Below are positions 2,119 through 15,484 of a DNA stretch of 26,466 nt, piece after piece. The notes below the pieces were generated by a model that was not told the DNA's origin, made no database searches, and worked only from the letters and a program-made list of their open reading frames with translations. The stretch is from a virus: IMG/VR virus record IMGVR_UViG_3300033144_004569, positions 1 through 26,466 of that record, one strand, 5' to 3'. Made by a program: the position numbers and the translations under genes. How positions within the stretch are numbered: position 1 is the stretch's first letter; each line of letters begins with the position of its first letter.

Positions 2119-2748
2119 TTAAAATATTTTGTTTGGTTTGCGAAAATCAAATTCATCTTTAATAGCCTGCATCTGAGCCTGTATCTTCCTATCCGTTTCA
2201 GTCTCTTCCAGTTCTTTCTTAAGTCGGACTTTATCCTTATATATGTCAACACGTGCCCTTATTTCTACATGACTTTGGCAGTTCGTACACCAATTATCCA
2301 GTGGGGAACTATCACTAAAATAATCCCGATCTATGACTTCTTCGGTATTAGGATCCACCCAAATCCTGGTCCAAATATTTGCGCGTTCACAACGAACACA
2401 AACGAGTTGATCATCAGTGTCCCCGGATACGAGTTGATCCAGCTTGCTTTGTATCTGTACAACCTCACCACGAAACTCTCGTTCGGTAGTAATTAAATTT
2501 TCTATTGTCTTTATGGCATAGAGTACCGTGGCATGGTCTTTCAAATACTCACTACCAATAACAGCAAGGGAAGCTGTGGTATATTTCTTTGCCAAGTACA
2601 TGCACAATTGTCGGCGTTGTACGATCTCTCGTTTACGCTTTTTCTGCATGAGTTCCCAAGGTTCCATTCGATAGAACCGACAAACGATTCTGGTAATCTT
2701 GGGCAGGAACTCCTTTGGCTGTTTGGTTATTTTGAGTACTACGCTCAT
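2119..2748 (-). CDS. DnaA domain IV-like DNA-binding protein with zinc ribbon
   Basis: Residues about 15-85 resemble the C-terminal DNA-binding domain IV of the initiator DnaA: an early helix (ITRIVCRFY), a basic segment (KKRKREIVQRRQ), then LKDHATVLYAIKTI, close to the DnaA signature helix-turn-helix (G-R-D-H-S/T-T-V-L-x-A). The AAA+ ATPase domain of DnaA is absent. Downstream there are two CxxC pairs (C117/C120 and C154/C157) spaced like a zinc ribbon, then a charged helical tail. In DnaA this domain binds DnaA boxes, so the protein may bind the phage or host origin or mimic or compete with host DnaA. The family role is known; the role here is inferred. It is coupled by ATGA to the Rad50 C-terminal half gene. 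Confidence 0.8.
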   Translation of the reverse strand: MSVVLKITKQPKEFLPKITRIVCRFYRMEPWELMQKKRKREIVQRRQLCMYLAKKYTTASLAVIGSEYLKDHATVLYAIKTIENLITTEREFRGEVVQIQSKLDQLVSGDTDDQLVCVRCERANIWTRIWVDPNTEEVIDRDYFSDSSPLDNWCTNCQSHVEIRARVDIYKDKVRLKKELEETETDRKIQAQMQAIKDEFDFRKPNKIF

Positions 2749-3368
2749 GACACTGTTGTTATACCTTTACGGATCTTGGTTTCAAATACTTTATCGGCAT
2801 TGTCAATGATATCTTCCTTGGGGATCCGTTCGTCACTAACCATTATAATCTGCAGGTTCAGCTTCTTGGAAACTTCCCGGGCCATCTCCAATACCCTGAG
2901 ATTAGCTTCATGCCCCTTGAGATGTTTGAACGGCTCATCCAACATAAGCACGTTCCGTGTATGTGGTCTTGCCATGGACCAGGAAGCAATCCGGAGGGCA
3001 AAAGCGGCAACGTCTACCGCCCCGCCTCCGGACGCTGAAAGTGGATCTACTTTATTACCATCCCGGGTGAAGAAGAGATCACACTCAGTCTTGTTCCTGC
3101 GTTTTACAAATTCTACTATCAGTTCATATGGATCATCAAATACAGCTTCCAGTGCCATGGATGTCAGATCACCTATGTGGAACTGGATCTGTTCCTGGGT
3201 CTTCAGAGCTACAATGCGCATGATTTCTCTGGCCTGGTCGTGCTTTTTCAGCTTGCGATTCTCAGTACGCAACAGGATCTTGTTCTCAGAGATTGTAGTC
3301 TTGATCTGAGCCAGCTTACCTTTTTGCTGCTCCAGCTTATTTCTTATATTTTGTATGGATTGGGCCAT
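2745..3368 (-). CDS. Rad50/SbcC-type ATPase, C-terminal half (gp46-like)
   Basis: This 207-residue protein carries only the C-terminal half of an SbcC/Rad50 ATPase. Residues about 4-60 form a coiled coil. Residues 111-116 (SASGGG) with the following helix are the ABC signature motif, and VLMLDEP at 140-146 is Walker B with the catalytic Glu. A D-loop-like region follows, and the switch region reads IMVSDE instead of the usual His form. No Walker A is present. The missing half (Walker A and zinc hook) is encoded at 4745-5662. The two halves would assemble with the SbcD nuclease (3722-4609) to process DNA ends for recombination, as gp46/gp47 do in T4. The start overlaps a 51-residue gene by 32 bases. 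Confidence 0.88.
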   Translation of the reverse strand: MAQSIQNIRNKLEQQKGKLAQIKTTISENKILLRTENRKLKKHDQAREIMRIVALKTQEQIQFHIGDLTSMALEAVFDDPYELIVEFVKRRNKTECDLFFTRDGNKVDPLSASGGGAVDVAAFALRIASWSMARPHTRNVLMLDEPFKHLKGHEANLRVLEMAREVSKKLNLQIIMVSDERIPKEDIIDNADKVFETKIRKGITTVS

Positions 3369-3492
3369 GATATCCTTTTAATCTTTTTTTGAAAATGCTT
3401 TTATTAAACCAGCGTTTTGCTTTTTCAAGTTGTTCCTCAGTTACAGGTTCGCCGGGATCATCTATTATGATAATGCGTTCATCCTTTTTCAT
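3337..3492 (-). CDS. 51-residue basic hypothetical protein
   Basis: A short gene from ATG 3492-3490 to TAA 3339-3337. Its start makes an ATGA overlap with the stop of the coiled-coil gene, which supports the frame. The N-terminus has MKKDERIIIIDDPGEP, a short hydrophobic beta strand followed by acids. The C-terminal half is strongly basic (RWFNKSIFKKRLKGYHG), suggesting nucleic-acid or protein contact. It sits between the pieces of the Rad50-like ATPase. Too short to assign. Confidence 0.5.
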   Translation of the reverse strand: MKKDERIIIIDDPGEPVTEEQLEKAKRWFNKSIFKKRLKGYHGPIHTKYKK

Positions 3493-3725
3493 AACTCATA
3501 CTTTTCTTCCAGTTTTATAACTCCCCCTCCGATTTGGGTGTTGAGATCTTCAGCCTCCGTTTCAAGTCCCTTCAACTTCTTCTCAGCTTGCTTGGTCGTG
3601 GTACACTTCCACTGATCCTTGAGTTCTTGCGTCACCGCCTCCTTCTTCCCTTCCAGTTTAGCGATCTCGGTTTTGGCATTGTCAATATCCTGCTTCAGTT
3701 CCAGAAGTTTTTCAGTCGTGCTCAT
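3489..3725 (-). CDS. short coiled-coil protein between SbcD and SbcC C-half
   Basis: A 78-residue protein that is almost entirely heptad-like and charged (KLLELKQDIDNAKTEIAKLEG, KQAEKKLKGLETEAEDL), predicted as two coiled-coil helices with one Cys at about residue 41. It lies between the SbcD nuclease and the C-terminal half of the Rad50 ATPase and is coupled to SbcD by ATGA. The C-terminal half gene has a coil of only about 55 residues while the N-terminal half has about 140, so this protein could supply missing coil length, or could be an independent adaptor. That is inference from position and sequence character only. Confidence 0.65.
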   Translation of the reverse strand: MSTTEKLLELKQDIDNAKTEIAKLEGKKEAVTQELKDQWKCTTTKQAEKKLKGLETEAEDLNTQIGGGVIKLEEKYEL

Positions 3726-4609
3726 GGTTGTATTGCTTTATATATTATATCACGTATATCCTGATCCGTTTCATTGGTATTGAAAAAGACTTCAAGGTTC
3801 TCCTCAAAACCAGTTTCCGCTTCCCAGGTAGTATCAAGTTTAGAAATGAAGGCATCAATTCGCCTTTCCCTGCGCTCCTTGACATCGATGTGGTCCCGGG
3901 TAAGCACACCTTCTGTGATGGGCAGGTACACGGGTTCCACGGTGTTGGATAAAGCATACCAGAGGTATACCCGGGGCTGGTGGTCTATCTGAGCAGCGGT
4001 CATTCGCATCATTGATCCCGGGTTTACCAGCAGCCTGCCCTCGTATGCCTGAACGAAGGGAATGTGGTTGTCTCCGGTTACGATCAGGTCCATGTCCGGA
4101 TACTTTCTCAGCAGCCGCATGGCAGACGGTCCTTTATGGTCCGGGTATGGGCGTTCATCCTTGTAGGTCAGGGTATGCCAAATAAGAACACTTCTACGCC
4201 CCTCTAGAAACGTAAGACCAGCTTTGTCTTCCGTTGGATTCATACCCCAATGACATCCCGGTAAGATTTGTAAGTTACTGGACTCAGCTAATGTATTGAC
4301 CCCACATTTGTCTGCTAAATCAATATTATGCTGTGGCAGGTCATGTTGACCATATATAGTCCAGAAAGTGAACGGCAAATGCCTAATTGTATGTGTAAGA
4401 AGTTCTGGTGTTGGTTTCCAATAATCGAAAAGATCACCAGCATGGAAAACTGGACAATTGTGTTTACGTTGCAAAATCTTTATGAATTGTACCTTCATCC
4501 ATTGTGCTATCCAGTAATTATCAGTCCTAGCACGGGGAACGGAGGAACGCAGGTGCATATCTGCACATAGAATTGCGTCTGGTTTTTTATTTTTCTTAGT
4601 CCTTTCCAT
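3722..4609 (-). CDS. sbcD: SbcD/Mre11-type DNA exonuclease (gp47-like)
   Basis: A calcineurin-like metallophosphoesterase of 295 residues. Visible metal-binding motifs in order: DMH (17-19), HAGDLFD (GD at 58-59), GQHD at 87-90 in place of GNHD, H145 in IWHTL, and TGDNHIP (179-182), with the family NPGS motif at 196-199. Mre11/SbcD partners with Rad50/SbcC to cut and resect DNA ends in the cytoplasm. Here the two halves of the partner flank it. I start at ATG 4609 (MERTKKNKK) because an upstream 48-residue gene ends at 4596; a longer frame to 4705 only adds non-conserved sequence read through that gene. The C-terminal roughly 90 residues are the Rad50-binding and capping part. Confidence 0.88.
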   Translation of the reverse strand: MERTKKNKKPDAILCADMHLRSSVPRARTDNYWIAQWMKVQFIKILQRKHNCPVFHAGDLFDYWKPTPELLTHTIRHLPFTFWTIYGQHDLPQHNIDLADKCGVNTLAESSNLQILPGCHWGMNPTEDKAGLTFLEGRRSVLIWHTLTYKDERPYPDHKGPSAMRLLRKYPDMDLIVTGDNHIPFVQAYEGRLLVNPGSMMRMTAAQIDHQPRVYLWYALSNTVEPVYLPITEGVLTRDHIDVKERRERRIDAFISKLDTTWEAETGFEENLEVFFNTNETDQDIRDIIYKAIQP

Positions 4610-4742
4610 GGAATTCTTTTGTTTTGACTGTGTATTGTTTTCCATCCAAGTCTTCCATTGTAAGTTCAATACTGATTGAGTCATCTTTTGGGAGATTGAT
4701 AACAATCTTCACAACACCAACTATTTGTTTCCCTACTGCCAT
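4596..4742 (-). CDS. 48-residue beta-rich hypothetical protein
   Basis: A short frame from ATG 4742-4740 to TAA 4598-4596. It starts 2 bases after the stop of the SbcC N-terminal gene (TAATTATG) and overlaps the SbcD start by 14 bases, the same packing as elsewhere. The sequence alternates like a small beta sheet (QIVGVVKIVINLPKDD, SISIELTMED). No motif recognised. Its place between the ATPase half and the nuclease suggests co-expression with the Mre11-Rad50 complex. Confidence 0.55.
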   Translation of the reverse strand: MAVGKQIVGVVKIVINLPKDDSISIELTMEDLDGKQYTVKTKEFHGKD

Positions 4743-4744
4743 AA

Positions 4745-5662
4745 TTATTTTTTCAGATTAGTATTACATAATGGACACACCTCCGGGAATTCTTCTTTAA
4801 ATCGCTTCTCCCATTTCTTGAGGGAGTGATTCCAATCACCCAAATCAGCGTCAATACTTTCTATTTCGTGTAGTACTCCTGCAATCTCGGCAATTGGGCC
4901 ACGCTCCAACGCATTGCGTTTAGAAATCAGATCCAATATCTTGGTTACCTCATCATCCATCTCAAGAAATACACCCCAATCAGCAATGTCCGTATCAATT
5001 GATTTTATCTCCTCGATTAGGGCCCCTAATTCCGATACGTTTGCTGACTTTGTGTTGTATTGTTTTCCCAGCTGTTCCAGTGCCTCGACTTCGATTTCAA
5101 ACTTCTCCAAGTGGGTATAATCCTCCAGCTTCTTCTCAGAGGATTCGATGTTCATGCCATAGGCTTTGATATTCTGATCAATTTGCCTGATTGCGGAATT
5201 GATATTTTTAACACCTTCATCGATCTTATCCAACTTGGCCACACGGTTAAAGTGTTTGGCCACCTCACCCGGGCTGGTTTCTTCTGCGAGAAGGAAGGGA
5301 CCGGCAAACTGATGCTGCAGGTTGATAGCACCTATATTGAGTGCCCGACGTATTTCTTCCGGGACATCTGTCTTAAATGCTACGAATTCCTGCTTCATCA
5401 AGTGATAGGCATTGTATGACTTATCTTTCGTTCGGGTGATTACAGCACCGTCATCAGTAATCATTACCAATTCCATGGGCCCACCCCAGTTGCTGATAAA
5501 CTCATCTCCTGATGGCCTGTTATCTACCAGCATACGAATACCCCGGGCAATAGAGGATTTGCCGGAGTCGGACTTGCCTATAATCACATTGACACCTGGA
5601 TCAAGGGTAATTAAGGTGCTTTTGTGACTTTGGAAATTTTTTAGAGAGAAAGATTTGATCAT
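4745..5662 (-). CDS. Rad50/SbcC-type ATPase, N-terminal half with zinc hook
   Basis: This 305-residue protein is the N-terminal half of an SbcC/Rad50 ATPase. It begins with the SMC-type strand (MIKSFSLKNFQSHKS), has a Walker A at 29-37 (GKSDSGKSS), a Q-loop region near LQHQFAGPF, then coiled coil from about 145 to 290, and ends with CPLCNTNLKK, a CxxC (C296/C299) zinc hook only six residues from the C-terminus. In Rad50 the hook lies at the tip between the two coils, so the gene is split at the tip. The signature and Walker B half is at 2745-3368. The start codon lies inside the preceding 70-residue gene by 62 bases but is fixed by the conserved N-terminal strand. Confidence 0.88.
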   Translation of the reverse strand: MIKSFSLKNFQSHKSTLITLDPGVNVIIGKSDSGKSSIARGIRMLVDNRPSGDEFISNWGGPMELVMITDDGAVITRTKDKSYNAYHLMKQEFVAFKTDVPEEIRRALNIGAINLQHQFAGPFLLAEETSPGEVAKHFNRVAKLDKIDEGVKNINSAIRQIDQNIKAYGMNIESSEKKLEDYTHLEKFEIEVEALEQLGKQYNTKSANVSELGALIEEIKSIDTDIADWGVFLEMDDEVTKILDLISKRNALERGPIAEIAGVLHEIESIDADLGDWNHSLKKWEKRFKEEFPEVCPLCNTNLKK

Positions 5663-11163: not shown

Positions 11164-12561
11164 CTATGCAGTTAGTTTATACTTTTCTTTTTCAGCCCAG
11201 CTTCCATCCACCGGACACAGTTCTGCGTCGACCTCCAGTGGCACCATAATCCACTTCCATGCCTTGGGCAGAAGCTTTGTCGTGACCTCACGTGCAAGTT
11301 CAGCGACCTGGACCAGTTCCTTGGGATCTACATCAAATAGAATCGCGTCGTGGATCTGGCCCAGCAACCTCGTGTTCAGATTCAACCTCTGGAACATCTT
11401 ATCCAGTTCAATGTATGACCACAACAGGCAGTGGAATGCGGCACCCTGGATGGGATAGTTGGTGACTTCCTTTTTGTTCATTACACCACTGCAGCGGAAA
11501 CCTGTGTGGTAATCTATAAATCCCCTGCGCTTGTAGATGTTCCACATCCTACGCCGCCACATGGCATACTCCGGGAATCGGTTGTTCCAGAAATCATGTT
11601 CGATTTTCTCCAGATGTGTTTCAAAGGATTTTATGGATTTTATTCCACTGTCTCTCAAATGGGTACCCAGTGTCGTACCTCTATCATCGATGCCGACACC
11701 GGTACCGTCTTTAAATATTCCATTTGACAACTCTCCCCATTTGACAGCCATATCTTTTGCATTGTGAACATAGTAATCTCCGTAGAACTGTGGAAATACA
11801 AATCCGTTCTTTGCTGCAGCCCGTAGGTATGCATGTTCTTTTGATCCATTGTATTCCAATTTAAAGATTTCCTCCATGGCATCCCTGTGCATATCAGTAG
11901 AGGGATCTTTGATATAACGTAACATATTCTCATCCTTGTGATAACAGGCACCCACACGTACCTCCAAGCTGCCGTAGTCGATCTCCAGTAGCTGATGACC
12001 ACGCCTTGGGTAAATGGCTTTTCTGACCAGCTGCATCGACTTCTCCTCACGCTTGGGGATGTTCTGGAAGTTGGGCCGGTCGGAACTGCTGCGGTAAGTG
12101 GTTACCAGCTGCAGGTTGAAGAAGGGATGAATTATGCCATTGGTTTGTTCCCTGAGGAATTGATCGAGGTAGGTATCCCTGTTCTTTTTCAGCTTACGCA
12201 TGGCCAGGATCATATTCAGTTCCGGGAGATCCAGTTCCAGCAGACTCTCTTCATCGGTGGAGCCCTTCTCGGTCCCGGTCAGCTTTGGTGGCTTAAGACC
12301 CAACTCATTATATAGATAGTTACTTAGTTGCACAGGTGAATTGAGATTTATTTCCTTGTCCTGGGACTTCTGCCACCGCTGGTAAAAGTCGGTTTCCTGC
12401 AATCCGGTCATGGTCCAATTGATCTGCTGGGACAGGTCAGCCTTGGCCTGTTTGACATAATCTACATCCACACGAATCCCATGGCGTTCGGCACGTCCCA
12501 TGGCTAATGATCCATCGTGTAGGAGGCGGTAAGCTTCAGCCGTCTGTGGGTGTAGGTTCAT
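11164..12561 (-). CDS. family A DNA polymerase, polymerase domain only
   Basis: A 465-residue polymerase domain of the Pol I family without its exonuclease, which is in the gene at 14276-15484. Visible motifs: a thumb/palm lead with RSSSDRPNFQNIPKRE (157-172), motif A LEIDYGSLEVR (D195 binding metal), the O-helix RAAAKNGFVFPQFYG (R247, K251, Y260), and motif C QIHDAILF (D405). Motif C has Ala where Pol I has Glu (HDE), and the O-helix has one extra residue compared with E. coli. It extends DNA primers. Coupled by ATGA to the ParB-like gene. Polymerase and exonuclease-UDG proteins probably associate into one functional enzyme. Confidence 0.93.
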   Translation of the reverse strand: MNLHPQTAEAYRLLHDGSLAMGRAERHGIRVDVDYVKQAKADLSQQINWTMTGLQETDFYQRWQKSQDKEINLNSPVQLSNYLYNELGLKPPKLTGTEKGSTDEESLLELDLPELNMILAMRKLKKNRDTYLDQFLREQTNGIIHPFFNLQLVTTYRSSSDRPNFQNIPKREEKSMQLVRKAIYPRRGHQLLEIDYGSLEVRVGACYHKDENMLRYIKDPSTDMHRDAMEEIFKLEYNGSKEHAYLRAAAKNGFVFPQFYGDYYVHNAKDMAVKWGELSNGIFKDGTGVGIDDRGTTLGTHLRDSGIKSIKSFETHLEKIEHDFWNNRFPEYAMWRRRMWNIYKRRGFIDYHTGFRCSGVMNKKEVTNYPIQGAAFHCLLWSYIELDKMFQRLNLNTRLLGQIHDAILFDVDPKELVQVAELAREVTTKLLPKAWKWIMVPLEVDAELCPVDGSWAEKEKYKLTA

Positions 12562-13373
12562 TTACTTCGGTTTCGAGATACATATTTTTTCAATTCTTTT
12601 ATTCCCTCAGAAGCCTTAAGCAAGGTTTTCAAGTCTCCAATTATAATCTTCCCATCATCCTGCTTTTTAATAAGATGAACTAGGGTTTTTGCGATTGCAT
12701 CATAATTAGGCTCTTCCGTCTTTGGTTTCAACAGTTTTTGCAATTCCTTATACAATCGATCCACTGGTTCATCATCAATCCTACCTTTAAGTGCATCGAT
12801 TTGTTTTTGGATCAGTGGAATATCACTCTCAGCCTCCATTATCTGATTGATCTTGCGGATTGTATCAGGACTTTTGTCAACAGCCTTGGCGGCCTTATCT
12901 ATCGGTCGATCTTCCTTTTCCGGTTCAGGTTCAGGCTTTTCTGGTTGTTGATCTTCCTCTTTATCAGACACATCAGAACCTTGTACTGAATCAGTACGAG
13001 GTTCGTCTTTATCAGGTTCATCTTCCAGGTCTGTTCTTTTTCCCGACTTACTTTCAGCCGCATGAAACCACTGAGCAATGGCGTGGATCTCAGTATTGGT
13101 AAAGTCCTTTCGAATGGTGTTTTCCTCCATCTCCGCTGTACGCTTTTCCCTATCATCAAAATCAGTAATGACATTGCATGGGATGGTATCCTCATCCATT
13201 TCCACAAACACCAAGTAACGTCTGTATCCGGCAATCAGATTATACTCTGTATCCACTACAATGGGCTGGAGAAGACCCAACCTCATAATACTGTCGGAAA
13301 GAGTAGAGAGGTCACCTACGTCTTTACGAAAGCGATCACCAATCTTGATTTGTTTTAGTTTTACTTCTTTCAT
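12558..13373 (-). CDS. ParB-like nuclease-domain protein
   Basis: A 271-residue protein with an N-terminal ParB/sulfiredoxin domain: the strand LLQPIVVD, the GYRR motif (49-52) in IAGYRRYLVF, and the ENTIRKDFT segment (84-92) as in ParB box II. Residues about 108-155 are a Glu/Pro/Lys-rich linker (EKPEPEPEKEDRP). A small helical unit (AKAVDKSPDTIRKINQIME) resembles the helix-turn-helix of ParB. The C-terminus is charged and helical. ParB proteins bind DNA and use CTP; phage relatives can act in partition, replication or as nucleases. The place between the polymerase and its exonuclease suggests a replication job. Which activity applies is unknown. Confidence 0.8.
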   Translation of the reverse strand: MKEVKLKQIKIGDRFRKDVGDLSTLSDSIMRLGLLQPIVVDTEYNLIAGYRRYLVFVEMDEDTIPCNVITDFDDREKRTAEMEENTIRKDFTNTEIHAIAQWFHAAESKSGKRTDLEDEPDKDEPRTDSVQGSDVSDKEEDQQPEKPEPEPEKEDRPIDKAAKAVDKSPDTIRKINQIMEAESDIPLIQKQIDALKGRIDDEPVDRLYKELQKLLKPKTEEPNYDAIAKTLVHLIKKQDDGKIIIGDLKTLLKASEGIKELKKYVSRNRSK

Positions 13374-13382
13374 AGTGTGTTA

Positions 13383-14255
13383 TTATTTTAACAATCTACG
13401 ATCCTCACGCGCTCCATGATTGTATATGCGGATCAACTCATCTTCAAATTGAGGAAAACCAAGTGCACCCCTAAAATTAGATACATCATTACTATCTAAT
13501 TTTCTCAACATGTATTTTAAATCAAAAGGATCCCCATCAGTTTGTCTTAACTTCCGAACTGATAGATACGCATTTACAAATTTAGAATTTGGGGTTTTAT
13601 GCTTATTACCACCTTTTCTATTAGCAAAGGCTCTAAAAATTCTTGACCAACACATTAAAAGCTCATCAGCACGTTCCTCAATTCGCGCAAGGCTGTATGT
13701 TGGGATTTTTAATTCACCGTCCCTAAATACTTTTGTATCTGATCCACCACCTTCAACATTGCGTCTATTAAAGAGCACAGCCAACATTGCTGAGTGCCCT
13801 ATTGGGTACTTATCAAGCAATTTTTCGTATAAAATGTATGAATCAATGTGCAATGTGACATACATGTGAAGAAATTGCTTCCAAGACCAATTTGCCCTTT
13901 TCGTATTTAAAGATTGTGTGATTACTAAAAGAGCCAAAGTAAATGGCAAAAGATAAAATTGGACAGATATGTCTAAAGATTCACAAGCGAATAATCTGTT
14001 TTGTCCATCAAGCACAAAATACTTACCATCCCTGAGTGTTACTAAGATGGGCATAAGCTGTCCTTTACTTTTCATATCTGCCAATAGATCGTTCATCTGT
14101 GCTGTGCCCGTGTACAACTCTCGATTACCCTCAATAAAATGGAATTGTGAGTAATTTTTTGTTTCAAAAACTTTTCCATAGATTCCGGAATGAACCTGTA
14201 CCCAATCAGCTGGTATGGTTGGTAAGTCTCGCACTAATACGTTGTCATTTTTCAT
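13383..14255 (-). CDS. second ParB-like protein
   Basis: A 290-residue protein whose residues about 54-100 show a ParB/sulfiredoxin-type domain: LLADMKSKGQLMPILV, then YFVLDGQNRLFACESL with the DGQNR motif (83-87) in place of GxRR. The C-terminal 190 residues are alpha-helical and unlike the first ParB-like protein, so this is not a recent tandem duplicate. The gene is AT-richer than its neighbours by eye and sits 9 bases from the other ParB-like gene and 20 bases from the UDG-exonuclease gene. Function not assignable; phage ParB-domain proteins range from partition factors to inactive scaffold proteins. Confidence 0.7.
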   Translation of the reverse strand: MKNDNVLVRDLPTIPADWVQVHSGIYGKVFETKNYSQFHFIEGNRELYTGTAQMNDLLADMKSKGQLMPILVTLRDGKYFVLDGQNRLFACESLDISVQFYLLPFTLALLVITQSLNTKRANWSWKQFLHMYVTLHIDSYILYEKLLDKYPIGHSAMLAVLFNRRNVEGGGSDTKVFRDGELKIPTYSLARIEERADELLMCWSRIFRAFANRKGGNKHKTPNSKFVNAYLSVRKLRQTDGDPFDLKYMLRKLDSNDVSNFRGALGFPQFEDELIRIYNHGAREDRRLLK

Positions 14256-14275: not shown

Positions 14276-15484
14276 CTAAAAAGGGAGGAAGCTATAGTTC
14301 ATCCCGTTAATTTGTTTCATCGCCAGCCTGAATTCGTATGCTGCGTCATAAGCACAGTACTCCATGAGTTTAGTCCGGCCCTGTCTGGTTTCTGTCAGTT
14401 CCCGGGTCTGATTAAACGAGTTGGCATTTTTATAGTCGCTACCCACCAGGTATGGATGGATCTCGCTGTCGTAATCGATGATACCGAAATTGACGTAGGT
14501 CTGAAACTTCAGACTGGTGATACCGGATCTGTTATCCAGAACATGTGCGGCCAGCATACTGTCAAACTCCCAGCTGACTGGCTTGGCATTGAACTTAACC
14601 CGGGACCAGGTATCCTCATATTTCATATTGTGAGCCATCATCCCGATCATGGGATTCTCAAGCAAGTTAATCAATGGCTGGCGCTCATTGCGTGTAGGTG
14701 GTATCATGAAGCTTAAAACCTTGTTCTCATCCACAGCCACGGCAGCACAGACAATCCTGTGCCCCGCAGCATAAGGTTTTAGGCCAGTGGTTTCAAAGTC
14801 AATAGCAATCAGATCAGTTTTTATAACATTCAACATTTCAATCTCATCATAGATAACTTCAACTTTTTTAGGTTTGGGTAAGGCCTTATTTACCAGATCA
14901 AACGCTTTCTTGAGATCTTCGGACCAGGTAAAGTCAGCACTGCCATCGTCCATGTGGCTGATGTAACTGGGATGAAAGGTGGGAACAATCCAACAGGCAA
15001 GATCCTGATCGGGAATTTCCCATCCTCTCCATTTTGTAATACCTCCCAGATCTCTTTTCCATCTCTTACCGATCACTGACTTCAGGGCCGTTGCACCCAA
15101 TAGGATAATCACCTCTGGTTGGAACTTGTCAATGGCGGGATTGACAATGACTTCCCTGCAGCAGTCTATCTCGAAGTTCTTGGGATCACGGTTTTTAGGT
15201 GGGCGACAATTTATTGCGTTGAGAACGACACAGTCCTCGAACAGATCAATACCTTCTCTTTTAAAGAAACGACGCAGCAGCTGGCCGGTCTTGCCTTGGA
15301 AGGGTAGACCCCGGTCATCCTCCACTTCCCCGGGAGCCTCACCAATGACCATTATCCTCTTACGGAAATTGCCATGAGGTTGGATCCTGGGACTGTCACA
15401 ATACTTGAACAGCTTGCAGGACTCACAGGTCAGGGCTTTCTTATCTACCCTGCGCTTAACCGTTGTTTCTTTGAAGGTGGTCAT
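14276..15484 (-). CDS. uracil-DNA glycosylase fused to 3'-5' exonuclease
   Basis: A 402-residue fusion. Residues 1-200 are a family 4/5 uracil-DNA glycosylase: iron-sulfur Cys at 20, 23, 93 and 108 (or 109), motif A GEAPGEVED (48-56), LGAT at 129-132, and motif B FHPSYI (H171). Residues 222-395 are a DnaQ-like proofreading exonuclease: DFETTG (D229, E231), AHNMKYED (284-291) and YCAYDA (Y376, D380). Both active sites look intact. SPO1-like polymerases, to my memory, carry a UDG-type domain ahead of exonuclease and polymerase; here the polymerase (11164-12561) is a separate gene, two ParB-like genes away. The enzyme pair would remove uracil and misincorporated bases during replication. The stop codon leads into a 20-base gap. 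Confidence 0.9.
   Translation of the reverse strand: MTTFKETTVKRRVDKKALTCESCKLFKYCDSPRIQPHGNFRKRIMVIGEAPGEVEDDRGLPFQGKTGQLLRRFFKREGIDLFEDCVVLNAINCRPPKNRDPKNFEIDCCREVIVNPAIDKFQPEVIILLGATALKSVIGKRWKRDLGGITKWRGWEIPDQDLACWIVPTFHPSYISHMDDGSADFTWSEDLKKAFDLVNKALPKPKKVEVIYDEIEMLNVIKTDLIAIDFETTGLKPYAAGHRIVCAAVAVDENKVLSFMIPPTRNERQPLINLLENPMIGMMAHNMKYEDTWSRVKFNAKPVSWEFDSMLAAHVLDNRSGITSLKFQTYVNFGIIDYDSEIHPYLVGSDYKNANSFNQTRELTETRQGRTKLMEYCAYDAAYEFRLAMKQINGMNYSFLPF

Follow-up and report, generated by a model that had tools for sequence, protein, structure and literature searches.

A phage Rad50/SbcC cut at the zinc hook, with a small coiled-coil protein as its probable third part

The arms of Rad50 and of SMC proteins are usually pictured as a single chain folded back on itself, and in ordinary Rad50 the two arms pair antiparallel at the arm base. 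The viral locus described here shares with Rad50/SbcC and Mre11/SbcD (including the phage families phrog_77 and phrog_100) the ABC head motifs, an antiparallel arm base as supported by coupling, the CxxC hook and an adjoining gene for a calcineurin-type nuclease partner. It differs from them in that the ATPase is encoded by two genes cut at the hook, with the genes for SbcD and for a small coiled-coil protein (CC) lying between them, in that the C-terminal chain carries about 50 residues of coil, and in that the length of the arm varies in 47-residue steps.

In the crystals of the P. furiosus Rad50 head the separation of the chains was reportedly engineered, and most of the arm is said to be absent. 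These structures (1f2t, 1ii8, 3qkr) belong to the nearest relatives of known structure for both halves, and in them, as presumably in our locus, separate N- and C-chains make one head; here, however, the genes themselves are separate, and the cut falls at the hook instead of at the base of the coil. Bacillus phage vB_BboS-125 has the same two halves as separate genes, gp32 (phrog_16465) and gp35 (phrog_15167); its N-half also ends in CPLC and a 78-aa protein, gp34, is encoded just before the C-half, but the SbcD gene follows the C-half and an AP2-domain gene follows the N-half. In the records of this phage and of PHROG the two halves stand under separate names and the pair is not described as a single split Rad50. 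Tatebe et al. (2020; PMC6969161) described the Rad50 hook as a constitutive dimerisation module that is interchangeable with the SMC hinge. Their work shares with ours the theme of the arm tip as an exchangeable dimerisation module; it deals with single-chain arms and contains nothing on split arms. A hook-split SbcC/Rad50 in phages was not found in a targeted literature search, which is weak evidence where subscription literature is concerned. New here are the 47-residue steps of the stalk at constant CC length and the pattern of covariation between the chains.

The window analysed is a 26,466-base fragment of an uncultivated virus, in which all genes of the locus are on the minus strand. Its parts are:

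5662..4745, minus strand: N-half of Rad50/SbcC (N), 305 aa, with the N-lobe (Walker A GKSDSGKS, Q-loop), three stalk units of 47-48 residues and a C-terminal CPLC hook.
5087..5113, minus strand: candidate docking site of stalk unit 0 (N residues 184-192, HLEKFEIEV), assigned to the C-half because the equivalent position covaries with C residue 15 but shows no such relation to CC residue 17.
4934..4960, minus strand: candidate docking site of stalk unit 1 (N residues 235-243, MDDEVTKIL), assigned to CC because of a charge-swap covariation with CC residue 17.
4787..4813, minus strand: candidate hook-proximal docking site (N residues 284-292, WEKRFKEEF), assigned to CC from covariation in the four-unit class, which is suggestive only in the window's own three-unit class.
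4766..4777, minus strand: zinc-hook motif CPLC (N residues 296-299), six residues before the C-terminus.
4705..3722, minus strand: longest SbcD-like ORF, beginning with TTG 4705.
3722..4609, minus strand: SbcD/Mre11-like phosphoesterase, with ATG 4609 as the likely start, judged from the length of its relatives.
3489..3725, minus strand: CC, a two-helix coiled-coil protein of 78 aa, the proposed repeating subunit of the arm.
2745..3368, minus strand: C-half of Rad50/SbcC (C), 207 aa, a single long helix followed by the C-lobe, with the signature SGGGAVDVA and Walker B VLMLDEP.

The order of transcription is N-half, a 48-aa ORF, the SbcD-like gene, CC, a 51-aa ORF and the C-half. The sequence-only reading of this DNA had proposed a Rad50 split at the hook, with Walker A and CPLC on one half and signature motif and Walker B on the other, and with SbcD, the coiled-coil protein and two small genes in between. 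Motifs, profiles and conservation confirmed the split, and all the intervening genes are present; the two small ORFs, however, had no relatives in the 36 related loci searched and do not seem to belong to the system. The CPLC six residues from the C-terminus of N and the unequal coils (about 140 against 55 residues in that reading, a stalk of about 148 against a C coil of about 50 by our measurement) were likewise borne out.

Profile searches placed the N-half in Pfam AAA_15/AAA_23 and in phrog_16465 ("exonuclease") and the C-half in phrog_15167 ("ATPase"), and against the PDB the two halves found the N-chains and the C-chains of Rad50, respectively. Invariant in the N-lobe are G29, G34, K35 and Q118, belonging to Walker A and the Q-loop. 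In the C-lobe, with signature and Walker B, two of the SGGG glycines and the aspartate of DEP never vary. The SbcD-like protein contains a calcineurin-like phosphoesterase domain (Metallophos_2, E 1e-8; phrog_100, SbcD-like) and is presumably the nuclease of the complex. AlphaFold2 modelled the window's N-half (90 sequences) with a pLDDT of 89.9 and, as best fold match in the PDB, Rad50 of P. furiosus. The model consists of the head, the helices 144-181, 185-234 and 236-291 and then the hook, the one-residue break at N 235 reading as a kink in the predicted stalk and not as a turn back. For the relative L016 the program predicted CC as two helices (4-37 and 43-73) and a C-half that opens with a single long helix and, like the window's N-half, matches Rad50 in its fold; this prediction was made with a stop-read-through CC-C chain without N, and the placement of CC in it is not trustworthy.

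A few residues of the window's proteins differ from those of relatives. The SbcD-like protein (3722-4609) has GQHD and GDNH where that of L016 has GNHD and GHNH, and thus may differ from it at two metal-site positions. Near residue 177 the C-half reads SDER in the window and in L002, L004, L008, L010 and L016, where most relatives have a TH-type H-loop; the ATPase switch histidine may have been lost in the window's clade.

The cut lies at the hook throughout the family, since CxxC is confined to the C-terminus of N. The motif (mostly CPLC) was found inside the last 45 residues in 178 of the 182 distinct N proteins, with a median of 6 residues after it, and not once in their other 56,889 residues; from its sequence the hook would bind zinc. 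The four other N proteins (L020, L021, L085 and L381) end in a C-terminal CPx(4-5)C, a possible variant of the hook.

Scans of viral contigs yielded at least 407 relatives of the C-half, and the fetched loci collapse to 204 with distinct C proteins. The reading had suggested a search for the same gene order in related phages, and the exact order N-SbcD-CC-C on a single strand was found in 178 of these 204 loci. Many of the remaining 26 are cut by the end of the contig; a few are rearranged (L036, L038, L111) or are without one detectable part. In L036 the C-half is on the strand opposite to N and SbcD, and in L026 C stands ahead of N. Neighbouring genes overlap or are spaced by at most 5 bases (108 loci examined) in 52 cases for N-SbcD, 45 for SbcD-CC and 67 for CC-C. 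The single polypeptide that characterises Rad50/SbcC is missing: among the 204 loci no ORF was matched by both halves and none matched any two of the four families (N, SbcD, CC, C). Fused N-C or CC-C relatives, sought in the same loci as a Rosetta stone, were not found. Among about 50,700 phage records only a handful contained the C-half, one of them the annotated isolate genome of Microcystis phage Mvi-JY20, which has the four genes in the same order, with a weak match for CC (E 0.05).

Relatives of the window's UvsX-like gene occur in 144 of the 204 loci; of the 143 whose position was measured, 142 stand upstream of N. Those of the gp32-like gene occur in 106, and with these neighbours the locus resembles a recombination operon. 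Immediately downstream of the C-half, at 2119-2748 on the minus strand, the window encodes a protein that carries the C-terminal DNA-binding domain of DnaA (Pfam E 1e-21); its relatives were present in only 3 of the 204 loci. Elsewhere on the minus strand, by eye from the translations, the ORF at 14276-15484 looks like a fusion of a family-4 uracil-DNA glycosylase with a DEDD-type 3'-5' exonuclease, and that at 11164-12561 is of the PolA type, seemingly the polymerase part only; two ParB-like ORFs (12558-13373 and 13383-14255) lie between them.

The length of the stalk, measured between D148, a landmark in the head, and the hook, falls into classes. It is 144-153 residues in 23 proteins (including that of the window), 183-206 in 136, 227-241 in 14 and 286-298 in 2, and few N proteins fall between these classes, which center on about 147, 194 and 241, with the two longest near 290. 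The step of 47 residues is also the leading self-similarity lag within N (59 of 90 sequences). CC has a near-constant length (median 81 aa) that is uncorrelated with that of N (rho 0.11, p 0.29). The reading had supposed that the 78-residue protein could make up the difference between the coils. From its coevolution with the N stalk, given below, CC is very probably a third structural part of the split Rad50; but with a stalk that varies in 47-residue steps and a CC that is constant, a single CC cannot simply bridge the difference.

Mean-field DCA of 152 paired loci, with an effective number of 147, gave the couplings between the chains; the residue numbers are those of the consensus of the four-unit class. 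The N-C pairs 193-8, 186-15, 158-42 and 151-49 fall on one antiparallel line, which by these couplings is the arm base of an ordinary Rad50, the C coil coupling to stalk unit 0. Eight N-C pairs were above the maximum of the permutations, a procedure that strips relatedness along with contact. The base is thus supported for N148-195 with the C coil, and for the remaining arm the C chain lacks a strand. By motifs, fold, arm base and hook the split system belongs to Rad50/SbcC, as one that appears to behave as a Rad50 with separate arms.

The top N-CC pairs were 236-13, 280-17 and 233-17, followed by 328-17, where N233, N280 and N328 are the equivalent docking site in units 1, 2 and 3. Two of these pairs were above the maximum of 12 permutations. 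In a run restricted to the stalk the top pair scored 2.24, where 74 permutations gave at most 1.53, and the statistic folded at 47 residues was 1.50, where they gave at most 0.93. The CC-C block, which retains relatedness, gave nothing above the permutation null in the 152 paired loci, and for the contacts of CC helix 2 neither a hairpin nor a tiled arrangement fitted consistently.

The pattern at the docking sites is one of exchanged charges. CC17 is K in 114 loci, mostly with E at N233, N280 and N328, and E in 15 loci, mostly with K or R at at least one of the three. The Spearman rho with CC17 is -0.57 for N233, -0.54 for N280 and -0.38 for N328, and each site keeps a partial correlation when the others are given (-0.54, -0.40 and -0.34, respectively). 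No relation to CC17 is seen at N186, the site of unit 0 (rho -0.11, p 0.18), which follows C15 (rho -0.55). By the tree of the SbcD proteins there were no fewer than 27 changes at CC17. Phylogenetically independent pairs changed in the expected direction by 6.7 to 0.3 for N280 (median p 0.03), 6.0 to 1.1 for N233 (p 0.125) and 5.4 to 1.6 for N328 (p 0.29), and by 1.0 to 2.6 for the control N186; after this correction the signal is significant at N280 only, has the expected direction at N233 and N328 and is absent at the control.

The 21 loci of the window's three-unit class lie outside the DCA set and could serve as an out-of-sample set; neighbouring offsets were also computed, the three named here being those that the model expects. 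At hook minus 59, the unit-1 site, the residue covaries with CC17 (rho -0.67, p 0.0009); at hook minus 106, the unit-0 site, it covaries with C15 (rho -0.58) and not with CC17 (rho -0.08). The hook-proximal site is suggestive only (rho -0.36 with CC17, p 0.11). Hook minus 106, which belongs to C in the three-unit class, belongs to CC in the four-unit class; the partner goes with the distance from the head, in line with the model. The 14 five-unit loci are already part of the DCA set and give no independent evidence. Homogenised repeats in N could mimic docking on several units, which is the main alternative for the multi-unit coupling.

The split, the gene order, the position of the hook, the quantised stalk and the covariation can be read directly from the sequences. 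From these we infer the physical assembly and the number of CC copies, and we give somewhat better than an even chance to a phage Mre11-Rad50 (SbcCD) whose Rad50 consists of three polypeptides, with one CC for each stalk unit beyond the first. N and C would form one ABC ATPase head, and the first 47-residue stalk unit of N would have the C coil as its antiparallel partner. Past unit 0 the descending arm would belong to no ATPase chain; the first helix of a CC would dock antiparallel on each further unit, making two copies for a three-unit stalk as in the window, three for the common four-unit stalk and four for a five-unit stalk. Since N ends in the hook, two N chains would meet at the arm tip and hold one zinc between them, with no descending strand covalently attached. 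SbcD would be the nuclease, and the complex would process DNA ends beside the UvsX-like recombinase and the gp32-like protein of the phage. That the arm is modular and non-covalent in this way, with a variable number of 47-residue docking units of which each beyond the first is filled by a separate small protein, we regard as an evenly balanced proposition. A need for several CC per N would lead one to expect that CC is the most translated gene. Its Shine-Dalgarno pairing is predicted to be stronger than that of the other three, with a median of -6.4 kcal/mol compared with -3.0 for N (paired p 2e-9), -3.3 for SbcD (6e-5) and -4.2 for C (4e-4), a comparison that, with start sites chosen by rule and hosts not identified, is supporting evidence only.

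An alternative has exactly one CC per N, which would pair with one unit and supply the distal part that the descending arm lacks. The lengths in the window nearly allow it, a C coil of about 50 residues and a CC of about 70 facing a stalk of 148. The units within one N are also alike, as seen from the couplings 233-280 and 236-283, so that binding at a single unit could echo at the others. We consider this arrangement unlikely but deserving of serious attention: the stalk varies by whole 47-residue units and CC does not, and every distal site retains its partial correlation with CC17 when the others are given. A Rad50 of N and C only, in which CC is a regulator or loading factor acting on the stalk or on SbcD and the rest of the stalk pairs N with N up to the hook, seems to us quite improbable. 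With the hook on N alone a parallel N-N arm is possible in principle, and no CC-C pair rises above the null; CC couples, however, antiparallel at the docking sites of the units, in a manner equivalent to the contact N186-C15.

That the halves never assemble, N and C being remnants or separate ATPases with other tasks, is very improbable, as the motifs of head and hook have been kept in both halves over deep divergence and eight N-C couplings beat every permutation. We give practically no credence to a sequencing frameshift, an assembly error or an interrupted single gene. Phages with an intact SbcC do exist, such as Pseudomonas phage UAntarctica with its protein of 750 aa; yet SbcD and CC separate the halves in 178 loci and in the isolate Mvi-JY20, and halves that are not adjacent cannot be produced by a frameshift. 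A homologue with one intact gene, which would point to a sequencing-type frameshift in the window and which the sequence-only reading had named as evidence that would speak against a split, did not turn up, no fused gene being present in the 204 loci, and the recurrence of the arrangement (178 of 204) refutes such an artefact.

A natural and widely conserved Rad50 cut at the hook would show the covalent link between the arms to be dispensable. It would also provide a compact system for studying head, arm, hook and nuclease each by itself. If the modular reading is true, arm length can shift by whole units while the partner protein stays unchanged; with a quantum of 47 residues it would change stepwise, and through the addition or removal of units the role of arm length and hook geometry in the tethering of DNA ends would become testable.
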